Of a DNA stretch of 64,000 nucleotides, positions 19,973 to 35,859 are shown piece after piece. The stretch lies in the NCBI RefSeq assembly GCF_009828835.1, contig NZ_WTTB01000003.1:186001-250000 (forward strand), read 5' to 3'. This DNA is from Erysipelothrix urinaevulpis. Lineage in GTDB: Bacteria; Bacillota_I; Bacilli_A; Erysipelotrichales; Erysipelotrichaceae. The notes under the pieces are model-generated. The model was given only the letters and a program-made list of their open reading frames with translations. It was not told the DNA's origin and ran no database searches. The position numbers and the translations under genes are program-made. Position 1 is the first letter of the stretch; the number at the start of each line of letters is the position of its first letter.

Positions 19973-20008
19973 TACCTAATATAGGACAAATAAGGGGAAT
20001 ATATCAAA

Positions 20009-20041
20009 AAAAGATTGAGTTTTCTAAGGACTCAATCTTTT
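20009..20041 (-). terminator. terminator of the inositol-type operon
   Basis: The arms AAAGATTGAGT and ACTCAATCTTT enclose a 9-nt loop, followed on the minus strand by a run of seven T. It lies 5 nt after the iolD stop. Confidence 0.9.
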
Positions 20042-20045
20042 CAAA

Positions 20046-21896
20046 TTAATATTTTCTTGTTTGTTTGACTGCTTCTTTCATTTCATCATATTTCTTTTGA
20101 ACATTATCATTCGCTGTAACTTCACTCACACCAACTCTCCACCAAGAGCTATAACCTTCTGTCATTGTCTTAGGCAGAACTTTAATGTCGAATAAGCATG
20201 CTCTAGTTTGTGTTTTTGAATCTTCTAGAGCGGCAAGTAATTCTTGTTCATTGTATATTTTATAGGTTTTTGCACCTAAACTTTGGGCGTTCATTGCGAA
20301 ATCAATTGGGACATAATCGCCACTTAATTGATCTGTTTTCTCATCTCGGTATCTAAAGACTGTTCCGAATGATTCACTCCCTTGGTTGTTTTGTAGGTTT
20401 TCAATACATCCCCAACCATGGTTGTCCATGAGGATTATATTAATTTTAATTCCTTCTTGGATTGCTGTGAATAATTCACTGTGCCCCATCAGATAACTAC
20501 CGTCGCCACACATTGTATAAACTTCTTGTGTTGGGGCTGCCATCTTCACACCTAGTGCTCCGTTGACTTCATAACCCATGCATGAGAAACCATATTCAAC
20601 ATGATATGTTTCCGGTGTCGAGGGTCTCCATACACGTTGTAAATCTCCTGGTAAACTTCCCGATGATCCAACAACAATCGCATCTTTGGCAATAGTCTCA
20701 TTGATAATTCCTAAGGCTCGAGTTTGCGAGAAGCCATAGCCTGGTTTGTGGTTGTAAAGTGCATCCACAATGCTGTCCCATTCTTCTTTAGCTTTCACAA
20801 TTTCATCTGTGTAGCTTGATTTATAATCTTGAAGTTCTTTTCCTAAAGTTTCTAAACCAAGTTTAGCGTCACCGACGATTGCGGTAGCATTCATCTTTAT
20901 ACTGTCAAACGTATTCACATTGAGAGTGATGATGTTTGCTGACTCTTTAAACAAGCCTTTTGATCCTGTAGTGAAATCACCAAGACGGGTTCCTACAGCT
21001 AAAATAAGATCTGCTTCTTTTGCTATTTCGTTTGCTGCTTTGCTACCCGTGACACCGATTCCACCAAGCATCAGTTCATGATTCCAAGGAAGCAAGCCTT
21101 TACCAGCTTGTGTTTCTCCCATTGGAATATTAAATTGTTCTGCGAAGTCTTTCAGTGCTTCACCAGCTAAACTATACCGTACACCACCCCCGACAACAAT
21201 CAAGGGTTTCTTTGCTTCTTTGATTTTTTCGGCTGCTTCTTTAATTGAACGATCGCTTGGAATGGGACGATCCATATACCAAACACGTTTGTCAAAAAAC
21301 CAGCGTGGATAATCATAACTTTCGGTCTGGACATCCTGAGGTAAAGCGATGGTGACAGCACCTGTATCACTAAAACTTGTGAGTGTGCGCATTGCATTCA
21401 TCATGGCACTGATCAATTGTTCAGGACGATTGATGCGATCAAAGTATTTTGATACGGCTTTAAATGAATCGTTGGCTGTAATCCCGACGTTATATTCTTG
21501 TTCAATTTGTTGAAGAACAGGGTCTGGTTGACGGTCTGCAAAGGTGTCACCAGGTAATAGAAGTAATGGAATACGATTGGCTGTTGCTGTTCCTGCTGCA
21601 GTGACCATATTTAAAGCACCCGGTCCGATTGATGACACACAAGGAATAATTCCTAAACGATTTTTTTGTTTAGCATAGCCAATTGCTGCATGTGCCATAT
21701 TTTGTTCGTTATGACCTTGGTAAAATTTGATGGATTGTCCAGGTTCTTGCAAACCTTGCCCAACTCCCAATACACAACCATGACCAAAGATTCCAAACAT
21801 ACTGTCTACATATTTATGGTCTTCTCCATCAATTGATACATATTGTTGATCGAGAAACTTTAGCAATGCTTGGGCCATTGTTAATTTAATTGTCAT
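20046..21896 (-). CDS. iolD: 3D-trihydroxycyclohexane-1,2-dione hydrolase
   Basis: ThDP-dependent enzyme that opens the six-membered ring of 3D-(3,5/4)-trihydroxycyclohexane-1,2-dione to 5-deoxy-D-glucuronate. At 616 aa it is slightly shorter than B. subtilis IolD but spans the whole fold. The N-terminal FGHGCVLGVGQGL and YQGHNEQNMAHAAIGYAK match IolD, where Glu activates ThDP. The C-terminal MCGDGSYLMGHSELFTA through ILMDNHGWGCIENLQ is the ThDP/Mg motif (GDGS...N). It is the last gene of the operon, 9 nt after the transaldolase gene, with RBS AAGGAGGGTCT. This unusual reaction ties the operon to cyclitol catabolism. Confidence 0.95.
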   Translation of the reverse strand: MTIKLTMAQALLKFLDQQYVSIDGEDHKYVDSMFGIFGHGCVLGVGQGLQEPGQSIKFYQGHNEQNMAHAAIGYAKQKNRLGIIPCVSSIGPGALNMVTAAGTATANRIPLLLLPGDTFADRQPDPVLQQIEQEYNVGITANDSFKAVSKYFDRINRPEQLISAMMNAMRTLTSFSDTGAVTIALPQDVQTESYDYPRWFFDKRVWYMDRPIPSDRSIKEAAEKIKEAKKPLIVVGGGVRYSLAGEALKDFAEQFNIPMGETQAGKGLLPWNHELMLGGIGVTGSKAANEIAKEADLILAVGTRLGDFTTGSKGLFKESANIITLNVNTFDSIKMNATAIVGDAKLGLETLGKELQDYKSSYTDEIVKAKEEWDSIVDALYNHKPGYGFSQTRALGIINETIAKDAIVVGSSGSLPGDLQRVWRPSTPETYHVEYGFSCMGYEVNGALGVKMAAPTQEVYTMCGDGSYLMGHSELFTAIQEGIKINIILMDNHGWGCIENLQNNQGSESFGTVFRYRDEKTDQLSGDYVPIDFAMNAQSLGAKTYKIYNEQELLAALEDSKTQTRACLFDIKVLPKTMTEGYSSWWRVGVSEVTANDNVQKKYDEMKEAVKQTRKY

Positions 21897-21905
21897 AGAC
21901 CCTCC

Positions 21906-22967
21906 TTATTGTTTTAATTGTTCTTTACGGATAATGACAAGGAGTTCATCATAGCCCCCAAAGAATTGTGTTAATGTTTTTTGTGTAGCACCTAAATGAA
22001 CAAAGTCTTCTGGTTTCATCCCTTCGGCAAGATACATCTTTTTGAAATCATCAACGTGCAAGAGTTCATCAATGATTGCTTGATCAACGGGCACATCAAT
22101 ACGTGATTCTACCTTATAATCCCCTTCATTGAATTTTTTAATCCATTTGTGTGGGATTGTCATTTCTAAATTACCACCGACAAAGTCTAACCATTGATTG
22201 TCGAAACGGTAAGCTGCTGCAAGCAAGGTAGTTCTGTAGCCTTTTTCTTGGAAAATTGTGTAAGCATTTTTCATGACGCTAACACCTGCTAATTCAAGAG
22301 CTTCTGGGCTCAAGTTTATGCCTTGAGTTTCTGCAGCTTCTTTGGTCCAATCACCAACACGTCCGACCATAATAGTACAGACAGGGTGCATGGTGGATGA
22401 GTCAAGACCTTCTTCTTCACGACGTTTTAATCCACGCTCGACAGCTTCTGCCACCGCTACGGCTTGGGCAACTGAGAATGATACTGTGGCATTGATACTT
22501 ACACCGCGATATGTTGCTTCTTCAAAGGCTTCGATTCCTTCTTTTGTTGATGGCATTTTGACTTGCATGTTTGGAGCAAGTGTTGAAAAATACTCAGCTT
22601 GATCCGCCATTTTTTCTGCACTACGGTAATATTTTGTATTCGTTTGAATTGAAATACGGCCTTTTTGTCCATTTGTTTCTTTGAAAATTGGCTCGAGAAG
22701 TTTGGCTCCTTCAATCGCTGTCATTTCAATAATTCTCCATGCAATTTCATCTTCTGTTTCGTTTGGATATTTCGCAACCATCTCTTGAATAATTGGTTGG
22801 TAAGTATCAAATTCTGCTTCAATAACATTCTTTACAATTACTGGGTTTGTTGTTGCTCCAACGGCTCCATATTCAATCGCATACTCTAATTCTGATATTG
22901 AGCATGAGTCGTTCCAAAAATCTGTTCCGTATTTTACGGCTGTTTCGTGTAATGGGCTTTTATACAT
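21906..22967 (-). CDS. transaldolase-family enzyme in an iol operon
   Basis: A Schiff-base class I aldolase fold. GAVGATTNPVIVKN (about 36-50) is the first transaldolase signature. MQVKMPSTKEGIEAF, with the Schiff-base lysine near residue 137-139, and GVSINATVSFSVAQA are the second and third. AGGAGG lies 6 nt before the ATG at 22967, giving 353 aa; an ATG two codons upstream abuts the Shine-Dalgarno. It sits between iolA and iolD where kinase (iolC) and aldolase (iolJ) genes would be expected; neither is in the window. I infer that it cleaves 2-deoxy-5-keto-gluconate and transfers dihydroxyacetone to glyceraldehyde-3-phosphate. Direct aldolase action on the phosphorylated ketose is the alternative. 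Confidence 0.85.
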   Translation of the reverse strand: MYKSPLHETAVKYGTDFWNDSCSISELEYAIEYGAVGATTNPVIVKNVIEAEFDTYQPIIQEMVAKYPNETEDEIAWRIIEMTAIEGAKLLEPIFKETNGQKGRISIQTNTKYYRSAEKMADQAEYFSTLAPNMQVKMPSTKEGIEAFEEATYRGVSINATVSFSVAQAVAVAEAVERGLKRREEEGLDSSTMHPVCTIMVGRVGDWTKEAAETQGINLSPEALELAGVSVMKNAYTIFQEKGYRTTLLAAAYRFDNQWLDFVGGNLEMTIPHKWIKKFNEGDYKVESRIDVPVDQAIIDELLHVDDFKKMYLAEGMKPEDFVHLGATQKTLTQFFGGYDELLVIIRKEQLKQ

Positions 22968-22977
22968 TGTCATCCTC

Positions 22978-24423
22978 CTAGCTCATCCAATCTGCTTTTT
23001 CTTCTGTATTCCATTTTGTTGTAATTTTTGTTAAATGTGACCAGAAGTCTAATGATAATTTACCTGTAATATCACCAAATCCGTATTTTGAACCCTTGAT
23101 TCCACCAAATGAGAATGGCTCACGTGGTACAGGAACCCCAATATTGACACCTAACATACCTGCTTGTAATCCTCTTAAAGCTTCATCAGATACACGACCA
23201 TTTTGAGTAAAGACTGAGCCTGCGTTTCCATAAGGTGATGCTTGTTGAATTTCAAGTGCTTCTTTTAAGTTGTCTGCTTCTACTACTTCTAAGACTGGTC
23301 CAAAGACTTCCTCAAGTGGCATCTTGTCTTGTAATCCACGCCAGTCAATTACGGTTCCACCAAAGTTATAACCTGGTCCGTGTTTTTGTGTGCGTCCATC
23401 AACAAGAATTTTTGCTCCGAGTTTTTCGGCATTTTCGATATAGTTTTCGATTTTTGCAATGGATTCCATTGAAACGATTGGTGGGATATCGACGCCTGCT
23501 TTTTGTGCTGTAATCTTTTCAACAACACTGTCTAAGATATGCTCTGAATCTCCTAGCATAACCATGACAGATGCCGCCATACAACGTTGCCCTGACATTC
23601 CAGTAGCTGATGCAACAATGTCAGATGGTGCACTGACTGGATGTGCATCTGGAGCCACGACAAGATAGTTTTTAGCGCCACCTAATGCAAGTGAACGCTT
23701 TAAGTTTGATGTAGCACGTTTGTAAACAATTTGCGCAACAGGTGTTGATCCTACAAATGATACAGCTTGAATTTGTGGGTGATCACTGATTGCTTCAACA
23801 GCATCCTTACCACCATTGAAAATATTGAAAATTCCATCAGGTAAGCCAGCTTCTTTCCATAATTTAGCCATCATTGCTGCACTTAAAGGTGTTAATTCTG
23901 ATGGTTTCACAATGATTGCATTTCCCATTGCGATGGCATTAGGAACTGTCCAGTGAGGAACCATTACAGGGAAGTTAAAAGGTGTAATGCTTGCGACGAC
24001 ACCTAATGGACGTCGTTCAGTACGACACACAACTCCACGACTGACTTCTTCAATTTCTCCTGCGGCTAATTGAGGAATAGAACATGCAAATTCTGTTAAT
24101 TCGATTGCCTTGTCAATTCCAGCGTATGCTTCACCCATGCTCTTACCATTTTCTTCATGGTTGATGACTGCTAATTCTTCTCTGTGTTTCAAGAGTAGGT
24201 TTCGATAGCTATATAAAACTTCCGAACGTTTCTTAAGGGTTAGTGCACCCCATGCTTGTTGAGCGATTGTGGCTGCTTCAACAATTTCATCAAGTTCTTC
24301 TTTTTTTGAATTATATGTTTGAGCAATTAATTCGCCATTCACTGGTGAGTAAACATCGATTAATTCACCCTTACTTTCTAACCATTGTCCATTTCCGTAA
24401 TTCTTTGATATTCCGTACTTCAT
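22978..24423 (-). CDS. iolA: malonic/methylmalonic semialdehyde dehydrogenase
   Basis: CoA-acylating aldehyde dehydrogenase that turns malonic semialdehyde into acetyl-CoA and CO2 with NAD. The catalytic Cys281 is in SGQRCMAASVM, the oxyanion Asn150 in ITPFNFPVMVPHW. The general base Glu of ordinary aldehyde dehydrogenases is replaced by the LGGAKN motif (247-252), diagnostic of the MMSDH/IolA subgroup. The 481 aa length is normal. AAAAAAGGAGAAATT precedes the ATG. Its stop codon overlaps the RBS of the transaldolase gene, suggesting coupling of the two steps. Confidence 0.95.
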   Translation of the reverse strand: MKYGISKNYGNGQWLESKGELIDVYSPVNGELIAQTYNSKKEELDEIVEAATIAQQAWGALTLKKRSEVLYSYRNLLLKHREELAVINHEENGKSMGEAYAGIDKAIELTEFACSIPQLAAGEIEEVSRGVVCRTERRPLGVVASITPFNFPVMVPHWTVPNAIAMGNAIIVKPSELTPLSAAMMAKLWKEAGLPDGIFNIFNGGKDAVEAISDHPQIQAVSFVGSTPVAQIVYKRATSNLKRSLALGGAKNYLVVAPDAHPVSAPSDIVASATGMSGQRCMAASVMVMLGDSEHILDSVVEKITAQKAGVDIPPIVSMESIAKIENYIENAEKLGAKILVDGRTQKHGPGYNFGGTVIDWRGLQDKMPLEEVFGPVLEVVEADNLKEALEIQQASPYGNAGSVFTQNGRVSDEALRGLQAGMLGVNIGVPVPREPFSFGGIKGSKYGFGDITGKLSLDFWSHLTKITTKWNTEEKADWMS

Positions 24424-24436
24424 AATTTCTCCTTTT

Positions 24437-25219
24437 TTATTTAATTAAATGTTCAAAATATGGGTCGTTATAGAATTTCCATGTTCTTGTTGGTCCAGCC
24501 ATAACGTTTAAATAATATAGATCATAGCCTGGAGGAACCGCAACTGGGTGATACCCTTCTTTAACTAAGACAGCACTATCATGCTCTACAACAAAGACTT
24601 CATCCACAGATTTGTCATCATTGTATACACGTTGTAAAGCAAATCCTCCTTCTTGAGGGTTTAACTTATGGTAGTATATTTCTTCTAAATAAGATTGGTT
24701 TGGTAGATCATCTTCATCATGACGATGGGATGGGAAACTTGACCAATTTCCACCCTTTGTGATGACTTCAACCACTAATAAACTTTCTGCTGGTTCAGTT
24801 TCAGGAAGAATGTTTTTTGCTGTTCTTTGTATTTGACCATAGCCACGGTGTTCAACACTCATTGTTTCTGGCTTAATAATTCGACTTGGCATTTCTTTTG
24901 ATGATGGGGAGGTACAGATTGCTAATTCGACAGATGTAGTAGCAGTAAATGTTAATTGATCACCAAGTCCTAAATAGATCGCATAGGGAGCCACCTCTGC
25001 AAAAACAGTGTCTCGATTTCCAATATGTTCTAATGGATTATTGCCAACAGCAACATCGCCATAACCATATAATAAGACTACACATTGTTCTGTATTATCC
25101 AGAGCATTCACAGTATAACTTTGTTTTTCTTCTAATTTCACGATTTGTAAACCAGTGTATTCCATTTCTTCACCCATCGTAACAACAATGGGTCTATTTT
25201 TTTCAATTCTTGCTTTCAT
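24437..25219 (-). CDS. iolB: 5-deoxy-glucuronate isomerase
   Basis: Cupin-fold isomerase converting 5-deoxy-D-glucuronate (the IolD product) to 2-deoxy-5-keto-D-gluconate. SSFPSHRHDEDDLPNQSYLEEI, here given as its key parts SFPSHRHD and YLEEIYYHKL, includes the metal-binding His and Glu residues of IolB. The C-terminal GYHPVAVPPGYDLYYLNVMAGP is also typical. Length 260 aa is near the family norm of about 270. AAGGAGTAATTA precedes the ATG. It lies 13 nt from iolA and 3 nt from the upstream regulator gene. Confidence 0.94.
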   Translation of the reverse strand: MKARIEKNRPIVVTMGEEMEYTGLQIVKLEEKQSYTVNALDNTEQCVVLLYGYGDVAVGNNPLEHIGNRDTVFAEVAPYAIYLGLGDQLTFTATTSVELAICTSPSSKEMPSRIIKPETMSVEHRGYGQIQRTAKNILPETEPAESLLVVEVITKGGNWSSFPSHRHDEDDLPNQSYLEEIYYHKLNPQEGGFALQRVYNDDKSVDEVFVVEHDSAVLVKEGYHPVAVPPGYDLYYLNVMAGPTRTWKFYNDPYFEHLIK

Positions 25220-25222
25220 TAA

Positions 25223-27208
25223 TTACTCCTTTAAAAACTTATGTAAATGATTCCATAATGATTCTTGTGTATCAATCTCATCAAGACCTTTAATAAAGTT
25301 TAGATCATGACTTAAGCGATGAACATCTGCAATACTATGCAAGTGATCTTTCGATGTTTTGGCTGCAATAAAGAAAAATAAACGTCCTTCACGATTGTAA
25401 GGAAATTTAGTGGCTTCTTTAACAAAAACAACACTCACACTGGGTTTAAGGATGGAGGCATCGATATCTCCATGCGGTAAAACAATCCCATTTCCGATAA
25501 CATAATGACCATCATATTGTTCACCAATTTCAACAATCTCGTCCACATAGTCATACGTTACAATCCCTTGATCAACTAACAATTCTCCACTCATTTTAAC
25601 GGCTTTTTGCCAAGTTGGTACGCTCTTAACCACAGCAATTGCCTTAAAATCTAAATATTCTTTTAAAGAACGTGAACTTCGATTCATCGTTTGATGGTCT
25701 AATTGGTCATGTATTATTTGTACTTTTTCTTCTAACTGATCATTTATTTGTCGATAGCCTTCAAAATGTGCCGATAATAAGACATGATCGTCATCAGTCA
25801 TCAACGGTGAAACCTGAATAATCGGAATGCCTTGATAGTCCTGACGATTTAAATTAACCGTTGTCACAATTGCATCTAAATCTTTGACTTGCATATCATG
25901 AAGTCGTTGTGAGGCCACTAAAGCGACAATCTCAACATTGTAATCTTGTTTGAGAGTTTGATTCATAATTTGAGACGTTCCAAATCCTCCACCACAAACA
26001 AGAATAATTCGCTTCGCCTGAATCGTTTTGCTTCGCATCCTCTCAATACCTGCAAGGACGTGTAAGGTTATCAAATAAACTTCAGTATCTGTGATGAGTT
26101 CAGCATCAATAAAGTCTAGCTTTAAGAGCGAATCCCTGACAATATCCAAATATTTTTTTACTGAATCACTTTCACTTAACACAATATCGACATCGTTATT
26201 AATACCTCTCAACATCCGATAAATTGTCGGTCTAATATGATTCAATAAACCTTCTAAAAGACGATCATCTTGGGTTAGATCATAGCCGCTAGCCTCTGAG
26301 ACTTCTTTGATAATATGATTAATTATTAGAACAATATCAACCCAGCGTTCCACAATAATACTACTCGACTCATTACCAAGAATTCCTACCGACTGATTTG
26401 ATATCCAAATAATGTCTTGTTTATCCAAACTAACACCTAATATCTTATTCAATCGATCAACATAACTCGCAATCACGTTATACAACGCTTGATCTCTAAT
26501 CGTTTGTTTACTTTCTATCGTATGATTATTTATTTTAGCCAAATAAGCAATCAAAACAATGACCCGAATTGATTCATAATAATTCGTATTGTCATTTTGA
26601 AATTGAGCCGAGATTTCTTGAAATAACTCATACAATTCTACTTGATCAATATCCAATAATTGTGAGGATAAATAATCATTGGTTGGATTTAATATACTTG
26701 TTGTTTTTAATTGATTCTGACTCATTAACAAGGCTGCCGAGATTTCATGAAGTTGAACATTTCGTATCACCAATTCATCAGCAACAATGCTATTTTCCAC
26801 AACTGATAATCGTTCATCTAAATTTTTTATTACGTCTGTTAAATCAGAACGAATCGAGGTACGACTAACCTCCATCTCTTTTGACAACAACGTCAAATTA
26901 ACATGACGTTCTATCAATAAGCGTGTTTTAACATAATCCATTCTTTCAAGTTTAGTATACTTATTCAAAGCTTGTAAAATTCCAAGGACATCCGTTTCAT
27001 TGTATTGAGATGGTATCGTAAGTTCTCCAGCTTTTTCTCGTGTAATTTCTGGAATATTGTACGCTTTTAAAACATAGTTTAAATTGTCTAGATCATACCG
27101 TAAGATACGATCACTAATATCTAAACGATTTAAAACATCTTGTACTTTTATCTGTTGCTTATTTTTTAGAAACTCAGCCAACACGATGACTCTTGAACTT
27201 ACGTACAT
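25223..27208 (-). CDS. PRD-containing transcriptional activator with EIIB and EIIA domains
   Basis: A 661 aa LicR/MtlR-type regulator. N-terminal helix-turn-helix segments cover about 1-140 (VQDVLNRLDISDRILRYDLD, then LLSKEMEVSRTSIRSDL). Two PTS regulation domains (about 190-400) follow. Next come an EIIB-like P-loop with CGGGFGTSQ (about 405) and a C-terminal mannitol/fructose-type EIIA with GIVLPHGDID (His near 577). Phosphorylation by HPr and by the operon's own permease would report substrate flux. It is embedded in the middle of the 11-gene operon, so positive autoregulation is likely. It should bind DNA, since it lacks a CAT RNA-binding domain. Confidence 0.92.
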   Translation of the reverse strand: MYVSSRVIVLAEFLKNKQQIKVQDVLNRLDISDRILRYDLDNLNYVLKAYNIPEITREKAGELTIPSQYNETDVLGILQALNKYTKLERMDYVKTRLLIERHVNLTLLSKEMEVSRTSIRSDLTDVIKNLDERLSVVENSIVADELVIRNVQLHEISAALLMSQNQLKTTSILNPTNDYLSSQLLDIDQVELYELFQEISAQFQNDNTNYYESIRVIVLIAYLAKINNHTIESKQTIRDQALYNVIASYVDRLNKILGVSLDKQDIIWISNQSVGILGNESSSIIVERWVDIVLIINHIIKEVSEASGYDLTQDDRLLEGLLNHIRPTIYRMLRGINNDVDIVLSESDSVKKYLDIVRDSLLKLDFIDAELITDTEVYLITLHVLAGIERMRSKTIQAKRIILVCGGGFGTSQIMNQTLKQDYNVEIVALVASQRLHDMQVKDLDAIVTTVNLNRQDYQGIPIIQVSPLMTDDDHVLLSAHFEGYRQINDQLEEKVQIIHDQLDHQTMNRSSRSLKEYLDFKAIAVVKSVPTWQKAVKMSGELLVDQGIVTYDYVDEIVEIGEQYDGHYVIGNGIVLPHGDIDASILKPSVSVVFVKEATKFPYNREGRLFFFIAAKTSKDHLHSIADVHRLSHDLNFIKGLDEIDTQESLWNHLHKFLKE

Positions 27209-27220
27209 GTTTTACGCTCC

Positions 27221-27985
27221 TTAAAGTAATGTTTTCAAATGATTTAAACTACGTTCAATGCTATTAAACATCCCAATTTTACTGTAATCTTGTTCAATAC
27301 AGAAATACTCAACACCATGTTCTTTTCCAAAATCAATAATAGCTTTAAAATCAACATCTCCATCACCACAAGCGACAAGATTATTTTCAAAATCATTGGG
27401 ATCTAAACTCGTGATGCAATCTTTCATATGAACAATTGGCATTCTACCTGAGAAATAGTGCATTTCTTTTAATGGATCATGACCAGCAATGCTCATCCAA
27501 TAAGTATCTGGTTCTGCATAAATACCGATTCCATTGACGGGATCCGTAATATACTGCATAACTTTACGACCATTAATTGTATTGTTGTAGTCATATTCTG
27601 GACAATGTAATCCAATTGAAAAACCAAGTGTTGATAACTTTGAAGCAGCTTCTATTAATGCTTCTTTTGTCTTAATGTAACCGTCTGTAGTTTGATCTTC
27701 ATCTTCAATGTACTTGTCATAAAGAACTTTACAGTTAAAGACGTAAGCTTCTTCTAATATTCCATCAAGATCGTTGAAGAATCGATCATGTTTGATGTGT
27801 AATCCAACAACTTCAAGTTCATATTTTTTTAGTAGATTCGCAAATTCATACATGTCATTACCACGCATACCATCGACTTGTACATATTTAAAACCCATTT
27901 CAGCAACCTGTTTCAACGTTCCTTCTAAATCTTTTTCAATTTCTTTTCTAAGTGAGTAGAGTTGTAATGCAATTTTAGCTGTCAT
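27221..27985 (-). CDS. IolE/IolI-like TIM-barrel isomerase or lyase
   Basis: Sugar phosphate isomerase/epimerase family (AP endonuclease 2 fold), 254 aa. Metal-ligand-like residues occur in GLHIKHDR, GLHCPEYDY, YAEPDTYWM, MPIVHMKDC and EYFCIEQDYS. Members in inositol operons include IolE (dehydrates 2-keto-inositol) and IolI (isomerises inosose). Relatives elsewhere cleave 3-keto-glycosides by beta-elimination. In this operon it lies between the aldo/keto reductase and the downstream ring-opening genes, so it should make the IolD substrate. The RBS is TTGGAGGATTAAT. Which of the three activities applies cannot be read from sequence. Confidence 0.82.
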   Translation of the reverse strand: MTAKIALQLYSLRKEIEKDLEGTLKQVAEMGFKYVQVDGMRGNDMYEFANLLKKYELEVVGLHIKHDRFFNDLDGILEEAYVFNCKVLYDKYIEDEDQTTDGYIKTKEALIEAASKLSTLGFSIGLHCPEYDYNNTINGRKVMQYITDPVNGIGIYAEPDTYWMSIAGHDPLKEMHYFSGRMPIVHMKDCITSLDPNDFENNLVACGDGDVDFKAIIDFGKEHGVEYFCIEQDYSKIGMFNSIERSLNHLKTLL

Positions 27986-27986
27986 A

Positions 27987-28940
27987 TTAATCCTCCAAAT
28001 TTAAATAGTTTACGTCTGCTTCATTTAGTTCTATTTTCGCACCCTCGATTGATGATCGTAATTCTTCAATACGTTCTGACCCAATGGCTGCAGCTGTTGG
28101 GAATTTTTGATTCAAAACGAATGACAATGAAATTTGAATGGGTGATACATTTTTCTTTTCAGCCATTTCCACAGCACGATCGAAACGTTTCCAGTTGTTG
28201 TCATTATAGAAGACATCAACCATTTCTTCATTTTCTAACTTGTCTGGTGCGAAGGCGCCTGAGAAGAATCCACCTGCTTGTGATGACCATGATAATAGTG
28301 GCATCTGTGTTTCTTTATGGAAGTCAATCATTGTCTGATCGGCTGTAACACATCCTGGCCAACGTGGTTTATTGACTTCAGCTAAACTAAGGTTTGGACT
28401 ATTAAATGTGAACGGTCTTAAGCCTTTTTCTTTCGCATAATTATTTGCTTCAATAATGCGATCTGTCTCCCAGTTAGATGTCCCAATTGCATAAACTTTA
28501 CCTTCTTGAATCATTTCGTTCAATGCTTCCATTATTGGGCCTACCTCTTGAGTGATATCATCACGATGTAAAGCAAATAATTCTACATGATCAGTTCCAA
28601 GCATTTCCAAACTCTTTTCAATATCTTCACGGATTGCAGTTGGATTGACACGTGGTGTATCTGGAAACTCACGAACTGGATGACATCCTTTTGTAAAGAT
28701 AACGACGTTATCACGGTTGTTTTTTTCTTTCATCCATGTGCCAAGTGCTAACTCACTGTGACGATAATGACGCGCTGTATCAAATGTTGTGCCGCCATTT
28801 GCAATAAATTCATCTAAGATGGGAGCTGCTACATCCATGTTATCTTTTCTTAAAAAATCTCCTGATCCCATCATAATTTGTGATAATTCAATATCTATAA
28901 TTTTATTATCTTTTAAACCTTCTACTTTAATTGTTCTCAT
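27987..28940 (-). CDS. aldo/keto reductase
   Basis: NAD(P)H-dependent oxidoreductase of the COG0667 class, 317 aa. The catalytic tetrad is visible: FDTARHYRHSE (Asp and Tyr near 54-59), IFTKGCH (Lys near 84) and LFALHRDD (His near 125). The ORF overlaps the upstream deaminase gene by 14 nt, with AGGAGGGCATC before the ATG. B. subtilis iol contains an AKR, IolS, of uncertain role. Because no IolG dehydrogenase is present in the window, I infer that this enzyme oxidises the cyclitol ring before the TIM-barrel enzyme acts. Confidence 0.9.
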   Translation of the reverse strand: MRTIKVEGLKDNKIIDIELSQIMMGSGDFLRKDNMDVAAPILDEFIANGGTTFDTARHYRHSELALGTWMKEKNNRDNVVIFTKGCHPVREFPDTPRVNPTAIREDIEKSLEMLGTDHVELFALHRDDITQEVGPIMEALNEMIQEGKVYAIGTSNWETDRIIEANNYAKEKGLRPFTFNSPNLSLAEVNKPRWPGCVTADQTMIDFHKETQMPLLSWSSQAGGFFSGAFAPDKLENEEMVDVFYNDNNWKRFDRAVEMAEKKNVSPIQISLSFVLNQKFPTAAAIGSERIEELRSSIEGAKIELNEADVNYLNLED

Positions 28941-29673
28941 GATGCCCTCCTAATAGCTTTGCTGCACCTTTATCAATATAGAGATAACCTGATGCATGAT
29001 TTCTAACTAAACTTGAAGGCACTGCATTTGATACTTCACCTTCAACAGTTGCTTTGATAATTTCTGCTTTCTTTTCAGCATTCGCAATTAATATCACGTG
29101 CTTCGATGCTAACAATGTCTTTAATCCTAAGGTAATTCCTACTTTTAAATCCAATTCTGTGTCAAAATATTTCTTGCCGACTTCTTTGGTCACTGGATCT
29201 AAAGGAATAATACCGGCTTCAAGTTCTAAATCTGCTCCTGGTTCATTAAAACCAAGATGACCATTCATGCCAATTCCTAATAGTGATATATCAATACCAC
29301 CAAGCTCTTTCACAATCGTTAAAATACGCTGTGATTCGGCTTGTAAATCAGTAGCCTTACCATCAAAAAAGTGCACATTATTCTCTAAGTCTATGCCTAA
29401 AGGAGTGTAAAGTGCATCATATAATGTTTGATTTGTACTTCCTTTTGTGTCATATCCTAAACCACCCCACTCATCGAGTGAAACAAAATGAACTGATGAT
29501 AAATCAATGTCATCATTATTCTTCATTTTTATGAGGTTTTGGAATATTTCGAGTGGAGTTTCTCCGCCTGCAAAACATAAAACTGCATCGGGTTTTTCGT
29601 TAATTATTTCCACAATTTTATTGCATGCTGCTTGTGAGGAAGCTGCATGATTCTTTGAAATGATAATTTTCAT
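28927..29673 (-). CDS. glucosamine/galactosamine-6-phosphate deaminase-isomerase family
   Basis: Member of the NagB/AgaI family, 248 aa, which converts amino-sugar 6-phosphates to ketose phosphates and ammonia. LCFAGGETPLEIF, SLDEWGGL and GIGMNGHLGFNEPG mark the active site. Canonical NagB has DGH at the last motif; here Asp is Asn (NGH), as I recall for E. coli AgaI. The ATG at 29673 is chosen because AAGGAGATATATT precedes it. It is the first enzyme after the PTS genes, which suggests that the imported compound contains a hexosamine phosphorylated at C6. Activity with the Asn variant is uncertain. Confidence 0.85.
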   Translation of the reverse strand: MKIIISKNHAASSQAACNKIVEIINEKPDAVLCFAGGETPLEIFQNLIKMKNNDDIDLSSVHFVSLDEWGGLGYDTKGSTNQTLYDALYTPLGIDLENNVHFFDGKATDLQAESQRILTIVKELGGIDISLLGIGMNGHLGFNEPGADLELEAGIIPLDPVTKEVGKKYFDTELDLKVGITLGLKTLLASKHVILIANAEKKAEIIKATVEGEVSNAVPSSLVRNHASGYLYIDKGAAKLLGGHHENN

Positions 29674-29730
29674 AATATATCTCCTTAAAAGTAACAAAGT
29701 TAAGGCAGTAACCTCAACTTTGTTTGATTA

Positions 29731-31050
29731 TTAAAAGTCTAAGTTTAATGCTTCTATTTCTTTATCTCTATCTGTTTTTTCAACTGAATCTTTAACATCC
29801 AAACTACGTTCATACATCTTAAAGAATGGGTAATACATTAAGATTGCTAAACCGATAATTACAAAGAACAGTACAATTGCTCGCCAATCCATTGTCGTTA
29901 AATATTGCGCTAAAACTACAGGAACACCACCAACATGCACGACAGGTGGTCGAACTATTCCCCATTTAAATACCATAAATGATAATGCTGATAATAAAGG
30001 AACTCCAAATACAAATGGAATAAATAGGTAAGGATTAAATGCAATCGGCAACCCGAACACAACGGGTTCAGAAATTGTGAAGATCATTGGAACAAATGAT
30101 GCTTTTCCAATCGCCTTTAAATCTTTACGTTTACTCATAATCGCTAAAATAACAAGAGCCCCTGTGATTCCACTTCCTGTCGCTCCCATAAAGTAGTCCC
30201 AATATGTTGGCGCAAAGACATGTGGAATCGCTTGTCCAGCTTGATATGCTGCGGCATTTGCAGCTAAGTATTGAGTCATAAACGGCATAACAAATCCGAT
30301 GAGGATTGCATAGCCATTTAATCCAATAAACCAAAATAACATTTCTAAAAATGAGATGATGATCACTGCCCACACAGTATCAATACTTCCTAAAGAGGGT
30401 GCTAATACAGATGTAAATGCTTCAGGAACAATTTGACCACCAGTCAACGCTCCAACCGCTAAATTAAGTCCTAATGCTAATAATAAGACTGTAATCATTG
30501 GAACAATTGATTCAAAGGTTTGAGAAATCATTTCTGGTAAACCTTCAAATCGCATCGTAAATTTATGTTTAATAAAGAAACTCATAATTTCAACGGATGT
30601 AATCGAAGCAATAATTGAAACAAATAATCCACGTGAATCTAAGTATTGCGTATCCATCACACCATCCACAATCTTAACGTTTAAGATCATCGTTGCAATA
30701 ACTGCCCCAATAATCCCATGAGTAATGGGAACATTCAACGTTCTTGAATGATTATATGAGATTGAAATTGCACTGTATAATGCCAGTAACCCAAAAGTAA
30801 AATTAAAGGGTAAATTAAGAATTTCCGCATTGTTAACAAAGAAATTATGAATCGCTCCACCAGCAGGAAATAATTGTCCAATTGCTGAAATAACGAGCGT
30901 AAATGATCCTACCATCAAGACTGATATAAGTGCCATCATTCCATTCTTAATGGATTGAATATGACGTTGTTTTTCAATCTTTGAAGCAATAGGACCCAGA
31001 TGAACTTCCAACATATCAACAGTTTTTGTCATTAAGTTTTTCGATGTCAT
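29731..31050 (-). CDS. PTS lactose/cellobiose-family EIIC
   Basis: Membrane permease of the PTS, 439 aa with about ten hydrophobic segments. It forms the channel that moves and presents sugar for phosphorylation by the IIB encoded just upstream. GLNGYAILIGFVMPFMTQYL and ISEPVVFGLPIAFNPYLFIP are hallmarks of the cellobiose/diacetylchitobiose/lactose IIC family. Its ATG follows the IIB stop by 1 nt, with GGAGG 9 nt upstream. This family usually carries disaccharides, which bears on the substrate of the inositol-type operon. Confidence 0.94.
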   Translation of the reverse strand: MTSKNLMTKTVDMLEVHLGPIASKIEKQRHIQSIKNGMMALISVLMVGSFTLVISAIGQLFPAGGAIHNFFVNNAEILNLPFNFTFGLLALYSAISISYNHSRTLNVPITHGIIGAVIATMILNVKIVDGVMDTQYLDSRGLFVSIIASITSVEIMSFFIKHKFTMRFEGLPEMISQTFESIVPMITVLLLALGLNLAVGALTGGQIVPEAFTSVLAPSLGSIDTVWAVIIISFLEMLFWFIGLNGYAILIGFVMPFMTQYLAANAAAYQAGQAIPHVFAPTYWDYFMGATGSGITGALVILAIMSKRKDLKAIGKASFVPMIFTISEPVVFGLPIAFNPYLFIPFVFGVPLLSALSFMVFKWGIVRPPVVHVGGVPVVLAQYLTTMDWRAIVLFFVIIGLAILMYYPFFKMYERSLDVKDSVEKTDRDKEIEALNLDF

Positions 31051-31051
31051 C

Positions 31052-31399
31052 TTAGTTTGCCTCCGTTTGATTTATTCGTAAATAAATCGCTTGTTTAAGG
31101 ATATTGGCGCCATTAACTGTTCCATAATCTTTGGTATCAATGACCTCAATGGGCTTTCCACGCTCATCACAAATTTCTTTTAAATCTAAGAATCGATGTT
31201 TGATTTGTGGTCCGATCAGGACAACATCAAAGTGATCGATGTATTCTTTAATATCACTTGCAGGATGTGCTTCTATTAAAACATCAACATCCTTGAGTGC
31301 TGTACTGCCTGCTGCGATTTCTCGCATCTTTGTTACCATGACGCCTGTTGACGCCCCTAAATTACAACAAAGCAAAATATTAAGTCTTTTAAAGTCCAT
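31052..31399 (-). CDS. PTS lactose/cellobiose-family EIIB
   Basis: Cytoplasmic phosphocarrier of 115 aa. ILLCCNLGASTGVMVTKM, near the N-terminus, holds the phosphorylatable cysteine (Cys12) and P-loop. I choose the ATG at 31399, 7 nt after the IIA stop; a TTG farther upstream lies inside the IIA gene. The upstream AAAGAGAG is a weak RBS, so translation may rely on coupling to IIA. Confidence 0.9.
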   Translation of the reverse strand: MDFKRLNILLCCNLGASTGVMVTKMREIAAGSTALKDVDVLIEAHPASDIKEYIDHFDVVLIGPQIKHRFLDLKEICDERGKPIEVIDTKDYGTVNGANILKQAIYLRINQTEAN

Positions 31400-31406
31400 G
31401 AATGAT

Positions 31407-31706
31407 CTACTCTCTTTCTTTATACCCTTCAATTAACTCTTCCGCAATTGATTCAAACATAACTGTATTCATCAATGTATCCTGCGCATGGATAACAAGT
31501 AAAGACAGTTGGTTATTAATATCTGGAATTTCCATCAGCACCTTGTTGATGCGTTGTGCTTCAAGAATTGAGGCTTGAGCCTCCTTCATCAAGACAACTG
31601 AAGATTCGTAATCTTTACGTCTTGCAGCTTGTATTGCTGTACGTAATGTTGCGAATGCATCACCTGCATATGAAATAATTCCAAAACTTGTTTCTTCTAT
31701 ATTCAT
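31407..31706 (-). CDS. PTS lactose/cellobiose-family EIIA
   Basis: Trimeric helical phosphocarrier of 99 aa. LLVIHAQDTLMNT carries the active-site His73, and GDAFATLRTAIQAAR is the typical N-terminal helix. The start is the ATG at 31706, with GGAGG 5 nt upstream; another ATG four codons earlier overlaps that RBS. First gene of the 11-gene operon; the promoter is near 31743-31771. Confidence 0.92.
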   Translation of the reverse strand: MNIEETSFGIISYAGDAFATLRTAIQAARRKDYESSVVLMKEAQASILEAQRINKVLMEIPDINNQLSLLVIHAQDTLMNTVMFESIAEELIEGYKERE

Positions 31707-31742
31707 AAAGGCCTCCACTAATGATTAACTAATCACACTTAG

Positions 31743-31836: not shown

Positions 31837-32706
31837 TTAATAGTCAATAACTTCCACCTTGTAATTATTTTGAATCATCGAATGAATGTGAAGTGCTAAA
31901 TATCCCACTTCACTTTCTTCGAGTTTGATGTGATAAATCTTTGATATATGGTCTGCAACCATCGTTGCAATTAGGTATTCTTGGGGTGCAAGTGAAGCAA
32001 TTGAAGCATTCAAATTATTTTGTACAGGAATTTGTTGAACCGAACGACGAATTGCAAATTCTAGATGATTGACAAATCGCATATAATAACGCGAACTAAT
32101 CTCTATTTTTTGACCGATTTCTCGTTCTATAATCATTCGGACTTCATAATTAATTTGATTAAACTCCAAGACTTCAGATACACCTTTTTTTGTTAAGGAT
32201 GCATGAACATGAAGCACAATAAAACTTAATTCATCTTTTGGAAATGATAAATCAGTGTTTTCATTAAGGTACTTTAAAACCCAACCAGCAAATTCAAACT
32301 CTTCTTTGTAATAAATTTTTAATTCGTTCATAAATGGATACGTGATGTTTATACCTTGTTCCAAACGCTCAATTGCGAAGATCAAGTGATCAAGTAGAGT
32401 TATGTTTAAATTGGGATTAATGGCTTGATCAAAGACTTCATTTGCTTTTTCAACAATTTCTTGAACCGCTTGAATTAGCTTCTCATCTTTTGCTCTTTTT
32501 AAAATCGAATGATACGTTTCTGCTTCGTCACCTTCAAGCACAAGTAAGTTTTTTTCAATGGTTTCAGGCAATGTTATTTCCTCGCCAATATTTCTACGGA
32601 AACCAATTCCTTTGTGAAACAAAATTCTTTTCTGTTGACTTGTGTTATGACTACACATCACGGAATTGTGGTTTAGTACTCTTATAATTGTGTATTTATT
32701 GTTCAT
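31837..32706 (-). CDS. BglG/LicT/GlcT-family transcription antiterminator
   Basis: RNA-binding antiterminator of 289 aa. An N-terminal CAT domain (about 1-60: TIIRVLNHNSVMCSHN, FHKGIGFRRNIGEEI) is followed by two PRDs (about 65-165 and 170-285) with the expected histidines in LDHLIFAIERLEQ and FVNHLEFAIRR. It would bind the RAT hairpin in the leader of the glucose-class EIICB gene, upstream in the same transcript, and allow read-through past the overlapping terminator. PTS-dependent phosphorylation of the PRDs should couple this to sugar supply. The RBS is GAGGAAAAAGC. Confidence 0.93.
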   Translation of the reverse strand: MNNKYTIIRVLNHNSVMCSHNTSQQKRILFHKGIGFRRNIGEEITLPETIEKNLLVLEGDEAETYHSILKRAKDEKLIQAVQEIVEKANEVFDQAINPNLNITLLDHLIFAIERLEQGINITYPFMNELKIYYKEEFEFAGWVLKYLNENTDLSFPKDELSFIVLHVHASLTKKGVSEVLEFNQINYEVRMIIEREIGQKIEISSRYYMRFVNHLEFAIRRSVQQIPVQNNLNASIASLAPQEYLIATMVADHISKIYHIKLEESEVGYLALHIHSMIQNNYKVEVIDY

Positions 32707-32718
32707 GCTTTTTCCTCG

Positions 32719-34086
32719 CTAATCTAGTTCTTTTTCAAATTCTTCAACCAATTTTAGGAAATCAATTGATTGATTGGCTTCTTTTGTGAATGTCATGATT
32801 GGATTGGTAAAGAGGATAATATCACTCTCACGATGGCCTTCCACTCGAACATAACTATTTGATTTTAAATCAATGTCATGTGTTAAGGAACAAGATTCAT
32901 GGGTATGAACTATTTTTCCATCGACAATGACCTTCCACTGAATTGGTGTTTTTGATCGACCCATCATCGTATAAAGTCCTTCATCAACACGTGTTAATGG
33001 ATGAACAATCTTACCACTTGATGATTTATATTCAAATTCTACATCGTCATAACATGTCACAATGATTTTCCCTTGTTTTAAACCATCATAGAGATTGTTG
33101 ACGGATAAACCATCACAATGAATCGATGTTGTAGGGTAACCAATTGGGTATTTGTTATAGTAATTTTCTTTATGAGCATCGCTACCACCAACCCCTATAA
33201 GACAAATTCTATTTTTCCATAAAAAGTCGAAAAATAAAAGAGCTTTGTGATTATCTGTTTCCACTTCCCACAAATGAGGTGAATTGATAACCTCAAGATG
33301 GGTTATGTATTGCATATCAATATGATGTTGAAGATCAATCCCTTTAGCAAATGGATGATTAATACTAATTGGATGACCTTCCTTACTCAAATGCTTAAAT
33401 AAATCATTTAAAACATCCGATTTTGTGTCATTCTTAATAAAATAGGGTTGATAATCAATGATTCCGTTATAACCGTAGACATTGTAATGCCCAAAGTTAT
33501 CAAACGTAATCTCAACACCTGGAATAATTGGAGCCTGAATATTAGGATAATGCGTTGTTGCAATTGAATGTTCCGTGTGTGATAAGTAATCCAAACCACT
33601 TCGTTCAAATTCTTTCGCAATTTTCTCATAAGTTATTCGACCATCTGATGAATCAGAGTGTAAATGGATATCACCTTGATAATATCGACTTAATGTATTC
33701 CATACTTTAGAAAAGTCTTGAGTGTAAATTGATGTGTTTGCGTGGCTAGGAGCTGTGTTAGCTTCTTCAATATTGATTTCAAATCGACCACCCACTTGGT
33801 ATGGTTTAATAATTTCTAAAACCCATGCTCCTTCAACAATTTCTGTTCTTGTTGCACCATTGCTTAACATCGCCGTTAACTCGCCAAAGTAAAGATATTT
33901 TTGACGTGTTTTCATGGTGAATTGGGCCACTAATTCCTTATGAGGATTTCTTAGATGAATTAAAACATGTTCGAACGGAACCTCGACAAGTTCTAAACGT
34001 AAGAGTTTAGGGCTTGTCGTTTGATTCCAAATAAATTCAAAATATTCATAGTGTTCATTAACATTAAAATCACCTGAAAATTTCAT
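32719..34086 (-). CDS. CehA/McbA-like PHP-domain metallohydrolase
   Basis: A 455 aa protein in two parts: an N-terminal beta-rich region (about 1-125) and a PHP phosphoesterase domain. Metal ligands can be seen in GDIHLHSDSSDG (His141, His143), YLSHTEHS (His170, His173), GVEITFDNFGH (Glu192), SINHPFAKG and GGSDAHKEN. There is no signal peptide, so it acts in the cytoplasm. Its ATG follows the EIICB stop by one nucleotide and the RBS is poor, implying coupling. It could hydrolyse a phosphate ester or diester brought in by that permease. The true substrate is unknown. Confidence 0.82.
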   Translation of the reverse strand: MKFSGDFNVNEHYEYFEFIWNQTTSPKLLRLELVEVPFEHVLIHLRNPHKELVAQFTMKTRQKYLYFGELTAMLSNGATRTEIVEGAWVLEIIKPYQVGGRFEINIEEANTAPSHANTSIYTQDFSKVWNTLSRYYQGDIHLHSDSSDGRITYEKIAKEFERSGLDYLSHTEHSIATTHYPNIQAPIIPGVEITFDNFGHYNVYGYNGIIDYQPYFIKNDTKSDVLNDLFKHLSKEGHPISINHPFAKGIDLQHHIDMQYITHLEVINSPHLWEVETDNHKALLFFDFLWKNRICLIGVGGSDAHKENYYNKYPIGYPTTSIHCDGLSVNNLYDGLKQGKIIVTCYDDVEFEYKSSSGKIVHPLTRVDEGLYTMMGRSKTPIQWKVIVDGKIVHTHESCSLTHDIDLKSNSYVRVEGHRESDIILFTNPIMTFTKEANQSIDFLKLVEEFEKELD

Positions 34087-34087
34087 A

Positions 34088-35725
34088 TTACAGCCCTAAT
34101 TCAAAGCGAACATCTGCACTGACTGATGCAACATGAGCACCGTAAATAATTTGAACTGCATTGTCTAGACGAATGACACCCATTGCTTCGAGTGAGTTTT
34201 TCCATAAATAATCAGGGCCAACTTTTTCTGCATCTTTAACAACAACACGTAAACGTGAAATGCAATTATCCACATCAACAATGTTTTCTGCTCCACCCAA
34301 TGCTTCAATAATGCCTTGAGCTAGAGCTTGATCCGCGTCTTTTTTACTTAATTCTTTAATTTCTTTTTGTTGTTCTTCATAATCTTTCTTAGAATATAAT
34401 TTAATGTCTTCTTCACTTTCTAAACCTTCTTCACGTCCAGGTGTTTGGACTTGGAATTTTTCAATTAAGAATTTAAAGATGAAGTAAGTTGCTATGAAAA
34501 AGAGTGGGAATAAGAATAGGTATGGTTTCATATTTAGTTTTTCAGGTCTTAAGAAGAATGGTATCCAGTCTTTAAGATTTCCCTGATAAATTGATACTTT
34601 AAAGAATTCTGATAACATTTCAGCAAGTGCTGCTAATGGAACATGAACTAGGAAATATAACCAAGGTGCAACAAACAAGAACGTAAACAAGATTGGCTCT
34701 GTAATCCCAAATAATGTTGTTGATAGAATTGTTGGAATAAGAAGTCCAGCAACTTTTTTCTTGTTTTCTGGTTTCGCTGTTTTATAAATAGCAAATGCGG
34801 CTCCTGGGAATATTGCAAAGTTAACAATTCCTGAGCCTCCCATAAATGCTCTGACTAATAATTTGTCTGGTGTTGGTGATGCAAGTTGTGCTAATTGAAT
34901 TGCTGCATTACCTGTAACCAATACGCCATCAACAACCATGCTTCCACCAAGTTCTGTCCAACGCATTGGCAATGACAAGAGTGGGTGTAGACCAAATGGA
35001 ATGAGTGATTCCACAACTAAACGATAAATAAATGTACCCGCTAAACCACTATCATGAACAAATTGTGCAAAACTTCCAAATAATGAACCAATCAATGGCC
35101 ATGAGAAGTTAAAGAAAATCCCTAAAGCTCCCCCTGCTAGTAATGATAAGATTGGAACGGTACGTGTTCCTGAGAAGAATGATAAGACCATCGGTAATTT
35201 CGTACGATAGAATTTTTGATGAATAATTGAAATGATTGTTCCTACTGCAATACCACCAAAGACACCGGTACGGTATGTGAAGAACCCAAGTTCAGTTGTA
35301 AATAACGCAGCTTGTTTTGACGCTTCAATAGGATCAACCCCTGCATCAATTAACCCTTGAACAGTTTGTGTCGCTGCACTTAAACCAGCTTGTTTTAAGA
35401 ATGTTTGGATTGTTGCTTGCATTGCTAACCATGCAACTAAGGCTGAAAATGCTGCCCATCCTTTTTCATTTTTAGCAAGTGAGAATGCAACCCCAACTGC
35501 ATAAAGTACTGAAAGGTTTCCAAAAATAACATCTCCTAGCCCTTTCAAAATTAAGAAGAATGTAAAGATAGCACCATTTTCATAGGTACTCCAATTAATA
35601 CCAAGGGCAGATACAGTCATTTCATTTGTAAATGCTCCCCCTAAACCTAAAAGCAACCCACCAAGTGCAACCAGTGCAATTGGAACTAACATTGCCTTTC
35701 CGTATGTTTGTAACTTTTCTCTCAT
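34088..35725 (-). CDS. PTS glucose/maltose-class EIICB
   Basis: A 545 aa permease. The EIIC part (about 1-430) has about ten hydrophobic segments, with GGSMVVDGVLV and GITEPILFTFLFVAPW typical of the glucose superfamily. The EIIB part (about 460-545) contains DVDNCISRLRVVV with the phosphorylatable Cys. No EIIA domain is present, so it borrows one, as MalX/GlvC types do. First gene of the operon with the PHP hydrolase and the antiterminator. The RBS is AAAAGGAGGCTAAT. Substrate not resolved; an alpha-glucoside or related sugar is plausible. Confidence 0.92.
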   Translation of the reverse strand: MREKLQTYGKAMLVPIALVALGGLLLGLGGAFTNEMTVSALGINWSTYENGAIFTFFLILKGLGDVIFGNLSVLYAVGVAFSLAKNEKGWAAFSALVAWLAMQATIQTFLKQAGLSAATQTVQGLIDAGVDPIEASKQAALFTTELGFFTYRTGVFGGIAVGTIISIIHQKFYRTKLPMVLSFFSGTRTVPILSLLAGGALGIFFNFSWPLIGSLFGSFAQFVHDSGLAGTFIYRLVVESLIPFGLHPLLSLPMRWTELGGSMVVDGVLVTGNAAIQLAQLASPTPDKLLVRAFMGGSGIVNFAIFPGAAFAIYKTAKPENKKKVAGLLIPTILSTTLFGITEPILFTFLFVAPWLYFLVHVPLAALAEMLSEFFKVSIYQGNLKDWIPFFLRPEKLNMKPYLFLFPLFFIATYFIFKFLIEKFQVQTPGREEGLESEEDIKLYSKKDYEEQQKEIKELSKKDADQALAQGIIEALGGAENIVDVDNCISRLRVVVKDAEKVGPDYLWKNSLEAMGVIRLDNAVQIIYGAHVASVSADVRFELGL

Positions 35726-35773: not shown

Positions 35774-35799
35774 AGCCCAAAAAAAAGATTTTTTGAGCT
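35774..35799 (-). terminator. leader terminator controlled by antitermination
   Basis: Minus-strand hairpin with arms AGCTCAAAAAA and TTTTTTGGGCT followed by a TTTTCTTTT tract. It lies between promoter and EIICB start codon and shares its first bases with the 3' end of the RAT element, so only one of the two can form. Confidence 0.85.
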
Positions 35800-35830: not shown

Positions 35831-35859
35831 ATAATAACAACCCATGAAAGCGTTGTCAA
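35831..35859 (-). promoter_or_regulatory. EIICB promoter containing a cre site
   Basis: Minus-strand TTGACA (35854-35859), 17-nt spacer, TATTAT (35831-35836). TGAAAGCGTTGTCA at 35845-35858 fits the cre consensus TGNAANCGNNNNCA completely and lies in the spacer and -35, so CcpA should repress. Nothing else is evident between this promoter and the Crp/Fnr gene end at 35935. Confidence 0.85.

Follow-up and report, generated by a model that had tools for sequence, protein, structure and literature searches.

How is inositol catabolism closed where the kinase and the aldolase of the known pathway are missing? The question is raised by a 64,000-nt stretch of the Erysipelothrix urinaevulpis genome (contig NZ_WTTB01000003.1, positions 186,001 to 250,000, hereafter the window), in which the inositol genes iolB, iolA and iolD stand together with a gene for a transaldolase-family protein (hereafter TAL). 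The arrangement represents a genuine variant of inositol catabolism that recurs in other genomes, a transaldolase-fold enzyme taking the place of IolC and IolJ. We infer the activity of this enzyme: TAL probably closes an inositol-type pathway by converting 2-deoxy-5-keto-D-gluconate (DKG) and glyceraldehyde-3-phosphate (G3P) into malonic semialdehyde and fructose-6-phosphate (F6P). The four genes are the following.

20046..21896, minus strand: iolD, trihydroxycyclohexane-1,2-dione hydrolase dependent on thiamine diphosphate (TIGR04377, 923.1 bits, cut-off 715)
21906..22973, minus strand: transaldolase-family protein TAL, 355 aa, proposed DKG transaldolase (PF00923, 142 bits)
22978..24423, minus strand: iolA-like, malonic-semialdehyde dehydrogenase of CoA-acylating type (TIGR01722, 409.5 bits, cut-off 448.5)
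24437..25219, minus strand: iolB, 5-deoxy-glucuronate isomerase (TIGR04378, 292.5 bits, cut-off 205)

The gaps between them are 13 bp (iolB-iolA), 4 bp (iolA-TAL) and 9 bp (TAL-iolD), and a regulator gene precedes iolB by 3 bp. At the iolA/TAL junction, TGAGC TAG GAGG ATG, the ribosome-binding site of TAL overlaps the iolA stop codon. A preliminary description of the window, which had reported both the tight coupling of the four genes and this overlap, was correct on each point. IolD and IolB both score above the curated equivalog cut-offs of the NCBIfam profiles, and DKG is the expected intermediate because both are present. For the iolA-like product the nearest profile is the CoA-acylating methylmalonate-semialdehyde dehydrogenase (MMSDH, TIGR01722), with a score just under the cut-off.

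We searched the host assembly, a 1.91-Mb draft, for the enzymes of the known route. No protein reached the IolC cut-off genome-wide, the best one scoring 93.7 bits versus 300 in this 92.8% complete genome, and the three clear PfkB proteins look ribokinase-, fructokinase- and 2-keto-3-deoxygluconate-kinase-like. As for IolJ, the two class II aldolases of the genome are a general fructose-bisphosphate aldolase and one adjoining a mannose-type phosphotransferase system (PTS), and neither adjoins iol genes. The earlier statement that the operon holds no IolC- or IolJ-like gene was thus borne out.

A TAL homologue was found in 36 of 295 genomes of the host's order (Erysipelotrichales). A further scan gave 248 relatives, of which we kept 80 named loci; the gene maps of high-GC loci were drawn by tblastn. 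An iol core gene lay within 9 kb at 35 of these 80 loci, and at 19 of them at least two iol core genes were on the same strand within 7 kb. TAL stands in iol operons of Clostridia, Erysipelotrichaceae, Fusobacteriota, Spirochaetota, Chloroflexota and others (examples are loci L094, L096, L107, L112, L121, L153, L156, L166 and L170), in orders such as iolB-iolD-TAL-iolE-iolG in Petroclostridium X23, iolG-iolD-iolE-TAL-iolB-MMSDH in Mahella, iolG-iolB-iolD-iolE-TAL-MMSDH in Treponema and iolD-iolE-iolG-iolA-TAL in Holdemania massiliensis (G175, locus L146; also L079). Cultured carriers are Holdemania massiliensis, Petroclostridium sp. X23 and Anoxynatronum buryatiense.

We then considered a sample drawn by IolD, chosen regardless of TAL, which consisted of 31 genomes (28 of the 393 Clostridia-class genomes and 3 Erysipelotrichales). 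IolC was above the cut-off in 13 of them and below it in 18. TAL was in the iol operon of 7 of the 18 IolC-less genomes (G000, G175, G191, G630, G634, G702 and G742; the TAL gene of G191, mostly N with its first residues legible, was counted as present) versus none of the 13 IolC-bearing ones (Fisher p 0.025), one of which, G786, has two TAL copies outside its iol operon. In a separate set of 42 genomes picked for carrying the TAL clade, 31 had no IolC over the cut-off, and IolC was likewise missing from 15 of the 19 genomes with TAL inside an iol operon. Some of these absences may be gaps, since many of the genomes are metagenome-assembled (MAGs); in G659 (L164) two contig-end fragments may represent a split IolC.

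The remaining IolC-less genomes of the IolD sample were almost all of a third type: 10 of the 18 had an iol operon with some or all of a set made of a split transketolase, a type II glyceraldehyde-3-phosphate dehydrogenase (GAPDH), a phosphoglycerate kinase (PGK)-like kinase, a Ni-dependent malate racemase and a malic-enzyme-like protein, and one was left unassigned, so that TAL or transketolase-type gene sets jointly cover 17 of the 18. The type II GAPDH scored 418 bits against 185 and the LarAH6-family malate racemase 604.6 against 500; transketolase subunits lay in the stretch read at 7 of the 10 loci.

L245:178-6716 (G1008:C13:3000-22500): transketolase-type iol operon with the whole set
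L240, L242-L244, L246, L247, L249, L251, L252: further transketolase-type loci

On DKG, a transketolase would leave 3-hydroxy-4-oxobutanoate, which the type II GAPDH, the PGK-like kinase, the racemase and the malic enzyme would bring to pyruvate; a possible route, as read from the gene content, is therefore DKG + G3P -> xylulose-5-phosphate + D-malic semialdehyde -> malate -> pyruvate. The racemase would be needed before an L-malate-specific malic enzyme because oxidised 3-hydroxy-4-oxobutanoate is D-malate by Fischer projection. We lean towards the view that inositol catabolism has three closings, namely IolC/IolJ, a transaldolase route and a transketolase route, mirroring the sulfo-TAL and sulfo-TK types of sulfoglycolysis.

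The chemistry of DKG is suited to the transaldolase closing. DKG is HOCH2-CO-CHOH-CHOH-CH2-COOH and has, from its ketone end, the (3S,4R) arrangement of fructose; cleavage between C3 and C4 would therefore give enzyme-bound dihydroxyacetone and malonic semialdehyde. The proposal that DKG carries the donor pattern of transaldolases accordingly stands, for both carbon skeleton and stereochemistry. Precisely, TAL would cleave DKG at C3-C4, freeing malonic semialdehyde, and the dihydroxyacetone would be held on Lys139 and then passed to G3P, which would yield F6P. The malonic semialdehyde would be taken up by IolA-type enzymes, iron-dependent alcohol dehydrogenases (Fe-ADH) or other aldehyde enzymes, and F6P would go back to G3P through phosphofructokinase (PFK) and fructose-bisphosphate aldolase, the phosphate being paid by PFK.

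With an ATP-dependent PFK the net reaction is DKG + ATP -> dihydroxyacetone phosphate + malonic semialdehyde, equal to that of IolC plus IolJ. Because F6P must return to G3P via PFK, no net ATP is saved (unless the PFK uses pyrophosphate); a saving of ATP is ruled out by stoichiometry, and the suggestion that the route runs without ATP has to be withdrawn. We also considered that PTS-phosphorylated inositol might enter as DKG-6-phosphate, and rejected it on chemical grounds: the aldehyde carbon of 5-deoxy-glucuronate becomes C6 of DKG, and it can bear no phosphate before the IolB step.

The neighbours of TAL agree with the proposed product. A malonic-semialdehyde-consuming enzyme, which was an MMSDH-type enzyme, an EutE-type acylating aldehyde dehydrogenase or an Fe-ADH, was encoded beside about 16 of 28 TAL-iol loci, whereas the 10 transketolase-type loci had none (p 0.002). 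The Fe-ADH family of the TAL loci is also present in canonical iolC-iolJ operons (L258, L259).

As for the enzyme itself, the AlphaFold2 model of the window TAL (pLDDT 96.7) predicts a transaldolase-fold Schiff-base enzyme, the closest solved structures being 3clm from Neisseria (Z 39.7, 2.0 A, 321 residues) and 3r5e from Corynebacterium (Z 38.3), whereas SF-TAL and fructose-6-phosphate aldolase (FSA) matched the barrel only, with Z 20-22 (SF-TAL Z 22 over 199 residues). The NCBIfam transaldolase models fell far under their cut-offs (116 versus 367, 83 versus 234 and 72 versus 396). Asp22, Asn43, Lys139, Asn161, Thr163, Arg205 and Arg256, which align with TalB D17, N35, K132, N154, T156, R181 and R228, were invariant in 110 of 110 clade members, Lys139 being the Schiff-base lysine. 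TalB E96, S176 and S226 were replaced by Gln, Thr and Ala in all 110 members, and TalB F178 (the position of the FSA tyrosine, Met202 here) by Met in 109 of them. We take the residue roles from TalB, with Glu96 as the acid-base residue; with Gln at the position of Glu96 and Met at that of Phe178, TAL is not an ordinary transaldolase. The idea of examining the donor pocket, raised in the preliminary description, thus returned a pocket that keeps the catalytic Lys, the Asp and both Arg and departs from TalB at Glu96. The two phosphate-binding arginines suggest a phosphorylated partner and hence transfer, although they could alternatively hold the carboxylate of DKG.

Several results weigh against TAL as the closing enzyme for DKG. 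IolC was over the cut-off in 11 of the 42 clade-bearing genomes and in 4 of the 19 genomes with TAL inside an iol operon. IolC/IolJ stand beside the TAL clade at L103 (iolA-TAL-iolC-iolJ), L115, L158 and L159, the hosts being a Fusobacteriaceae MAG, Acidaminobacter and two Lachnospiraceae MAGs, and on the Clavibacter plasmid pCI3 (L265/L267) a 45%-identical TAL homologue lies a few kb from iolC-aldolase-iolB-iolD-Gfo/Idh. These five cases rule out a strict mutual exclusion of TAL and IolC, and the replacement of IolC/IolJ by TAL is common rather than a universal rule. About half of the named TAL loci have no nearby iol gene, and most Erysipelotrichaceae relatives lack IolD at the TAL locus, where the neighbours are a fructose PTS, a class II aldolase, an RpiB-like protein and Fe-ADH. 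In the host, IolE had no genome match at E <= 1e-4, and the window unit is led by a PTS, which normally delivers a phosphorylated substrate; the substitutions at Glu96 and Phe178 count on the same side. In Holdemania massiliensis a second, near-identical TAL copy (L043) lies in an IolB-like/Fe-ADH/PTS cluster, which points to the same reaction in the two contexts.

These observations leave room for three other explanations. TAL might act as a plain FSA-type aldolase, splitting DKG into dihydroxyacetone and malonic semialdehyde, with the dihydroxyacetone phosphorylated or reduced elsewhere. The replacement E96Q/F178Y turns TalB into an aldolase, and the Gln that all clade members carry in place of Glu96, the transaldolase hallmark, is that of FSA. 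Engineered TalB E96Q variants have also been solved (PDB 4rz5/4rz6 and 9qpk). However, Met202 stands where FSA has its tyrosine, neither phosphate-binding arginine has been lost, and the FSA model TIGR00875 reached 48 against a cut-off of 246; no DhaK/DhaL motif was present in any locus scanned, so that free dihydroxyacetone would be without an evident local sink. We regard this aldolase as unlikely. A transaldolase of the ordinary pentose-phosphate kind that sugar operons have picked up would account for the fold, the catalytic lysine and the relatives that adjoin fructose PTS, aldolase and RpiB-like genes, but it accounts poorly for the recurrent position between iol genes across phyla and for an active site altered in all members, and the host genome encodes a separate TalC-type transaldolase (C1:3382-4083); it is the least probable of the three.

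Alternatively, TAL may act on a related but different keto acid, whether from a different isomer of inositol or in the form of a sugar acid of PTS origin, and a kinase and an aldolase that escaped recognition may deal with the DKG of the window. The co-occurrence of TAL with IolC/IolJ, the PTS-linked clusters without IolD, the missing IolE and the incompleteness of the host genome (92.8%) all speak for it, whereas IolB and IolD predict DKG, and the IolC-less IolD genomes had either TAL in the iol operon (7 of 18) or, in nearly all other cases, the transketolase-type set; we hold it to be quite improbable. The DKG transaldolase therefore remains our preferred reading. Of the preliminary interpretation, in which TAL closes the iol pathway, the recurrence in iol operons, often without IolC and near malonic-semialdehyde enzymes, was upheld, and among its limits is the presence of the clade in non-iol PTS clusters. 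Similarly, the proposed search for this clade with iol genes and without iolC/iolJ returned iol core genes at 35 of 80 loci together with loci where IolC/IolJ coexist with TAL. Overall, the observation was confirmed and its interpretation partly supported.

Compared with the canonical iol pathway of B. subtilis and Salmonella (IolG-E-D-B-C-J-A; PMC9430895, PMC8355322), the window shares IolD, IolB and a malonic-semialdehyde enzyme, and probably the net products, but it has a transaldolase-fold enzyme for IolC/IolJ, and IolE was not found either. Sulfo-TAL sulfoglycolysis (SftT/BmSF-TAL; PMC11659671) is similar in that a ketol-isomerase comes first and a transaldolase then makes F6P, by moving dihydroxyacetone onto G3P from an anionic ketose that bears no phosphate; it differs in its substrate, which comes from sulfoquinovose and not from inositol, and in its enzyme, SF-TAL having about 220 aa versus the 355-aa subfamily of the window. 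Membership of TAL in SF-TAL was not supported, given this length and the scores of SF-TAL chains, which are below those of classical transaldolases. With the latter (3clm, 3r5e, TalB) TAL shares the fold, the Schiff-base lysine and the equivalents of Asp17, Asn35, Arg181 and Arg228, but only about 21-26% identity, with Glu96->Gln, Ser176->Thr, Phe178->Met and Ser226->Ala. Sulfo-TK sulfoglycolysis (PMC11659671) is the analogue of the transketolase-type iol operons, although it gives C2-sulfonates whereas the proposed iol product is malic semialdehyde, then malate.

So far the transaldolase shortcut has been described only for the sulfosugar sulfoquinovose. As the preliminary description had supposed, we found no transaldolase or transketolase tied to inositol cleavage in the open-access literature, a weak negative given that scope. 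Surveys treat IolC as core; where a cluster lacks one core gene, they blame an incomplete genome, an assembly error or a frameshift (PMC9430895). Megamonas funiformis is reported to express iolB, iolD, iolE, iolG and iolI, iolC not being among the listed genes (PMC12130570). If the proposed route is true, at least some clusters without IolC would be complete pathways of another type, anaerobic inositol users would be under-counted, the predicted fermentation balance would change, and the transaldolase and transketolase closings would be a solution that evolution has reached repeatedly for ketose acids without a phosphate.

In the window, iolB-iolA-TAL-iolD are the last four genes, at the 3' end, of a PTS unit of 14 genes that starts at 35725, with no long gap upstream. 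Its other features are the following.

20005..20038, minus strand: hairpin and T-run 3' of iolD, probable unit end (AGATTGAGT...ACTCAATCTTTTTTT, by reading)
25223..27208, minus strand: PRD/EIIA-type PTS-controlled transcription regulator (PF00874, PF00359)
27221..27985, minus strand: AP_endonuc_2 TIM barrel (PF01261, 39 bits; IolE model 20.6 bits, cut-off 290)
27987..28940, minus strand: aldo/keto reductase (PF00248, 163 bits)
28927..29697, minus strand: NagB-like amino-sugar-phosphate deaminase/isomerase, start codon uncertain (NF001684, 193 bits versus 326; PF01182)
29731..31050, minus strand: PTS lactose/cellobiose-family EIIC (TIGR00410, 231.7 bits versus 236; PF02378)
31052..31432, minus strand: PTS lactose/cellobiose-family EIIB (TIGR00853, 83 bits versus 110)
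31407..31718, minus strand: probable PTS lactose-family EIIA (open reading frame, by reading and position)
31837..32706, minus strand: LicT/BglG-type antiterminator (PF00874, PF03123)
32719..34086, minus strand: possible PHP-type metallohydrolase (weak PF02811, E 0.036)
34088..35725, minus strand: PTS glucose-family EIICB, first gene of the unit (PF02378, PF00367)
35774..35799, minus strand: leader terminator-like hairpin, candidate LicT target
35831..35859, minus strand: promoter-like site TTGACA-17-TATTAT with TG (11/12 matches, best in the region, by consensus scan only)

With a strong promoter-like site and a leader hairpin ahead of the first gene, and a hairpin plus T-run behind iolD, the iol block looks like the end of a single PTS-led, LicT-controlled unit. 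Judging from sequence, the TIM barrel (27221..27985) may stand in for IolE and the aldo/keto reductase (27987..28940) for IolG; no iolG-like gene was seen in the operon, and no search aimed at IolG was made. Between 27221 and 35725, two PTS systems, the NagB-like protein, the aldo/keto reductase, the TIM barrel and LicT share the unit with the iol genes. The PTS and the NagB-like protein lead us to speculate that the substrate may be a conjugate of inositol or of an amino sugar.

The iolA-TAL-iolD stretch has a GC content of 39-40% versus 33.9% for the window. In the tree, the window TAL groups on a long branch with clostridial iol-operon TALs and apart from those TALs of its family that belong to PTS/Fe-ADH clusters, its local support and exact position being weak. 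Tree placement and raised GC both fit a horizontal gain of the iol/TAL module.

Other clusters of the clade and its relatives were also seen. In Erysipelotrichaceae (L045, L040-L064), a conserved set of fructose PTS, class II aldolase, RpiB-like, GldA-like and DeoR genes is divergent from TAL and Fe-ADH; some of these clusters also contain a distant IolB or the halves of a transketolase. A subfamily 23-29% identical to TAL (L073-L078) lies in fructose-PTS clusters and has Asp17->Asn, Arg181->Ile and Gln at Glu96. In Spirochaetes (L113, L116, L128, L142, L160), TAL is followed by an EutE/SauS-type CoA-acylating aldehyde dehydrogenase, often in stretches without iol genes.

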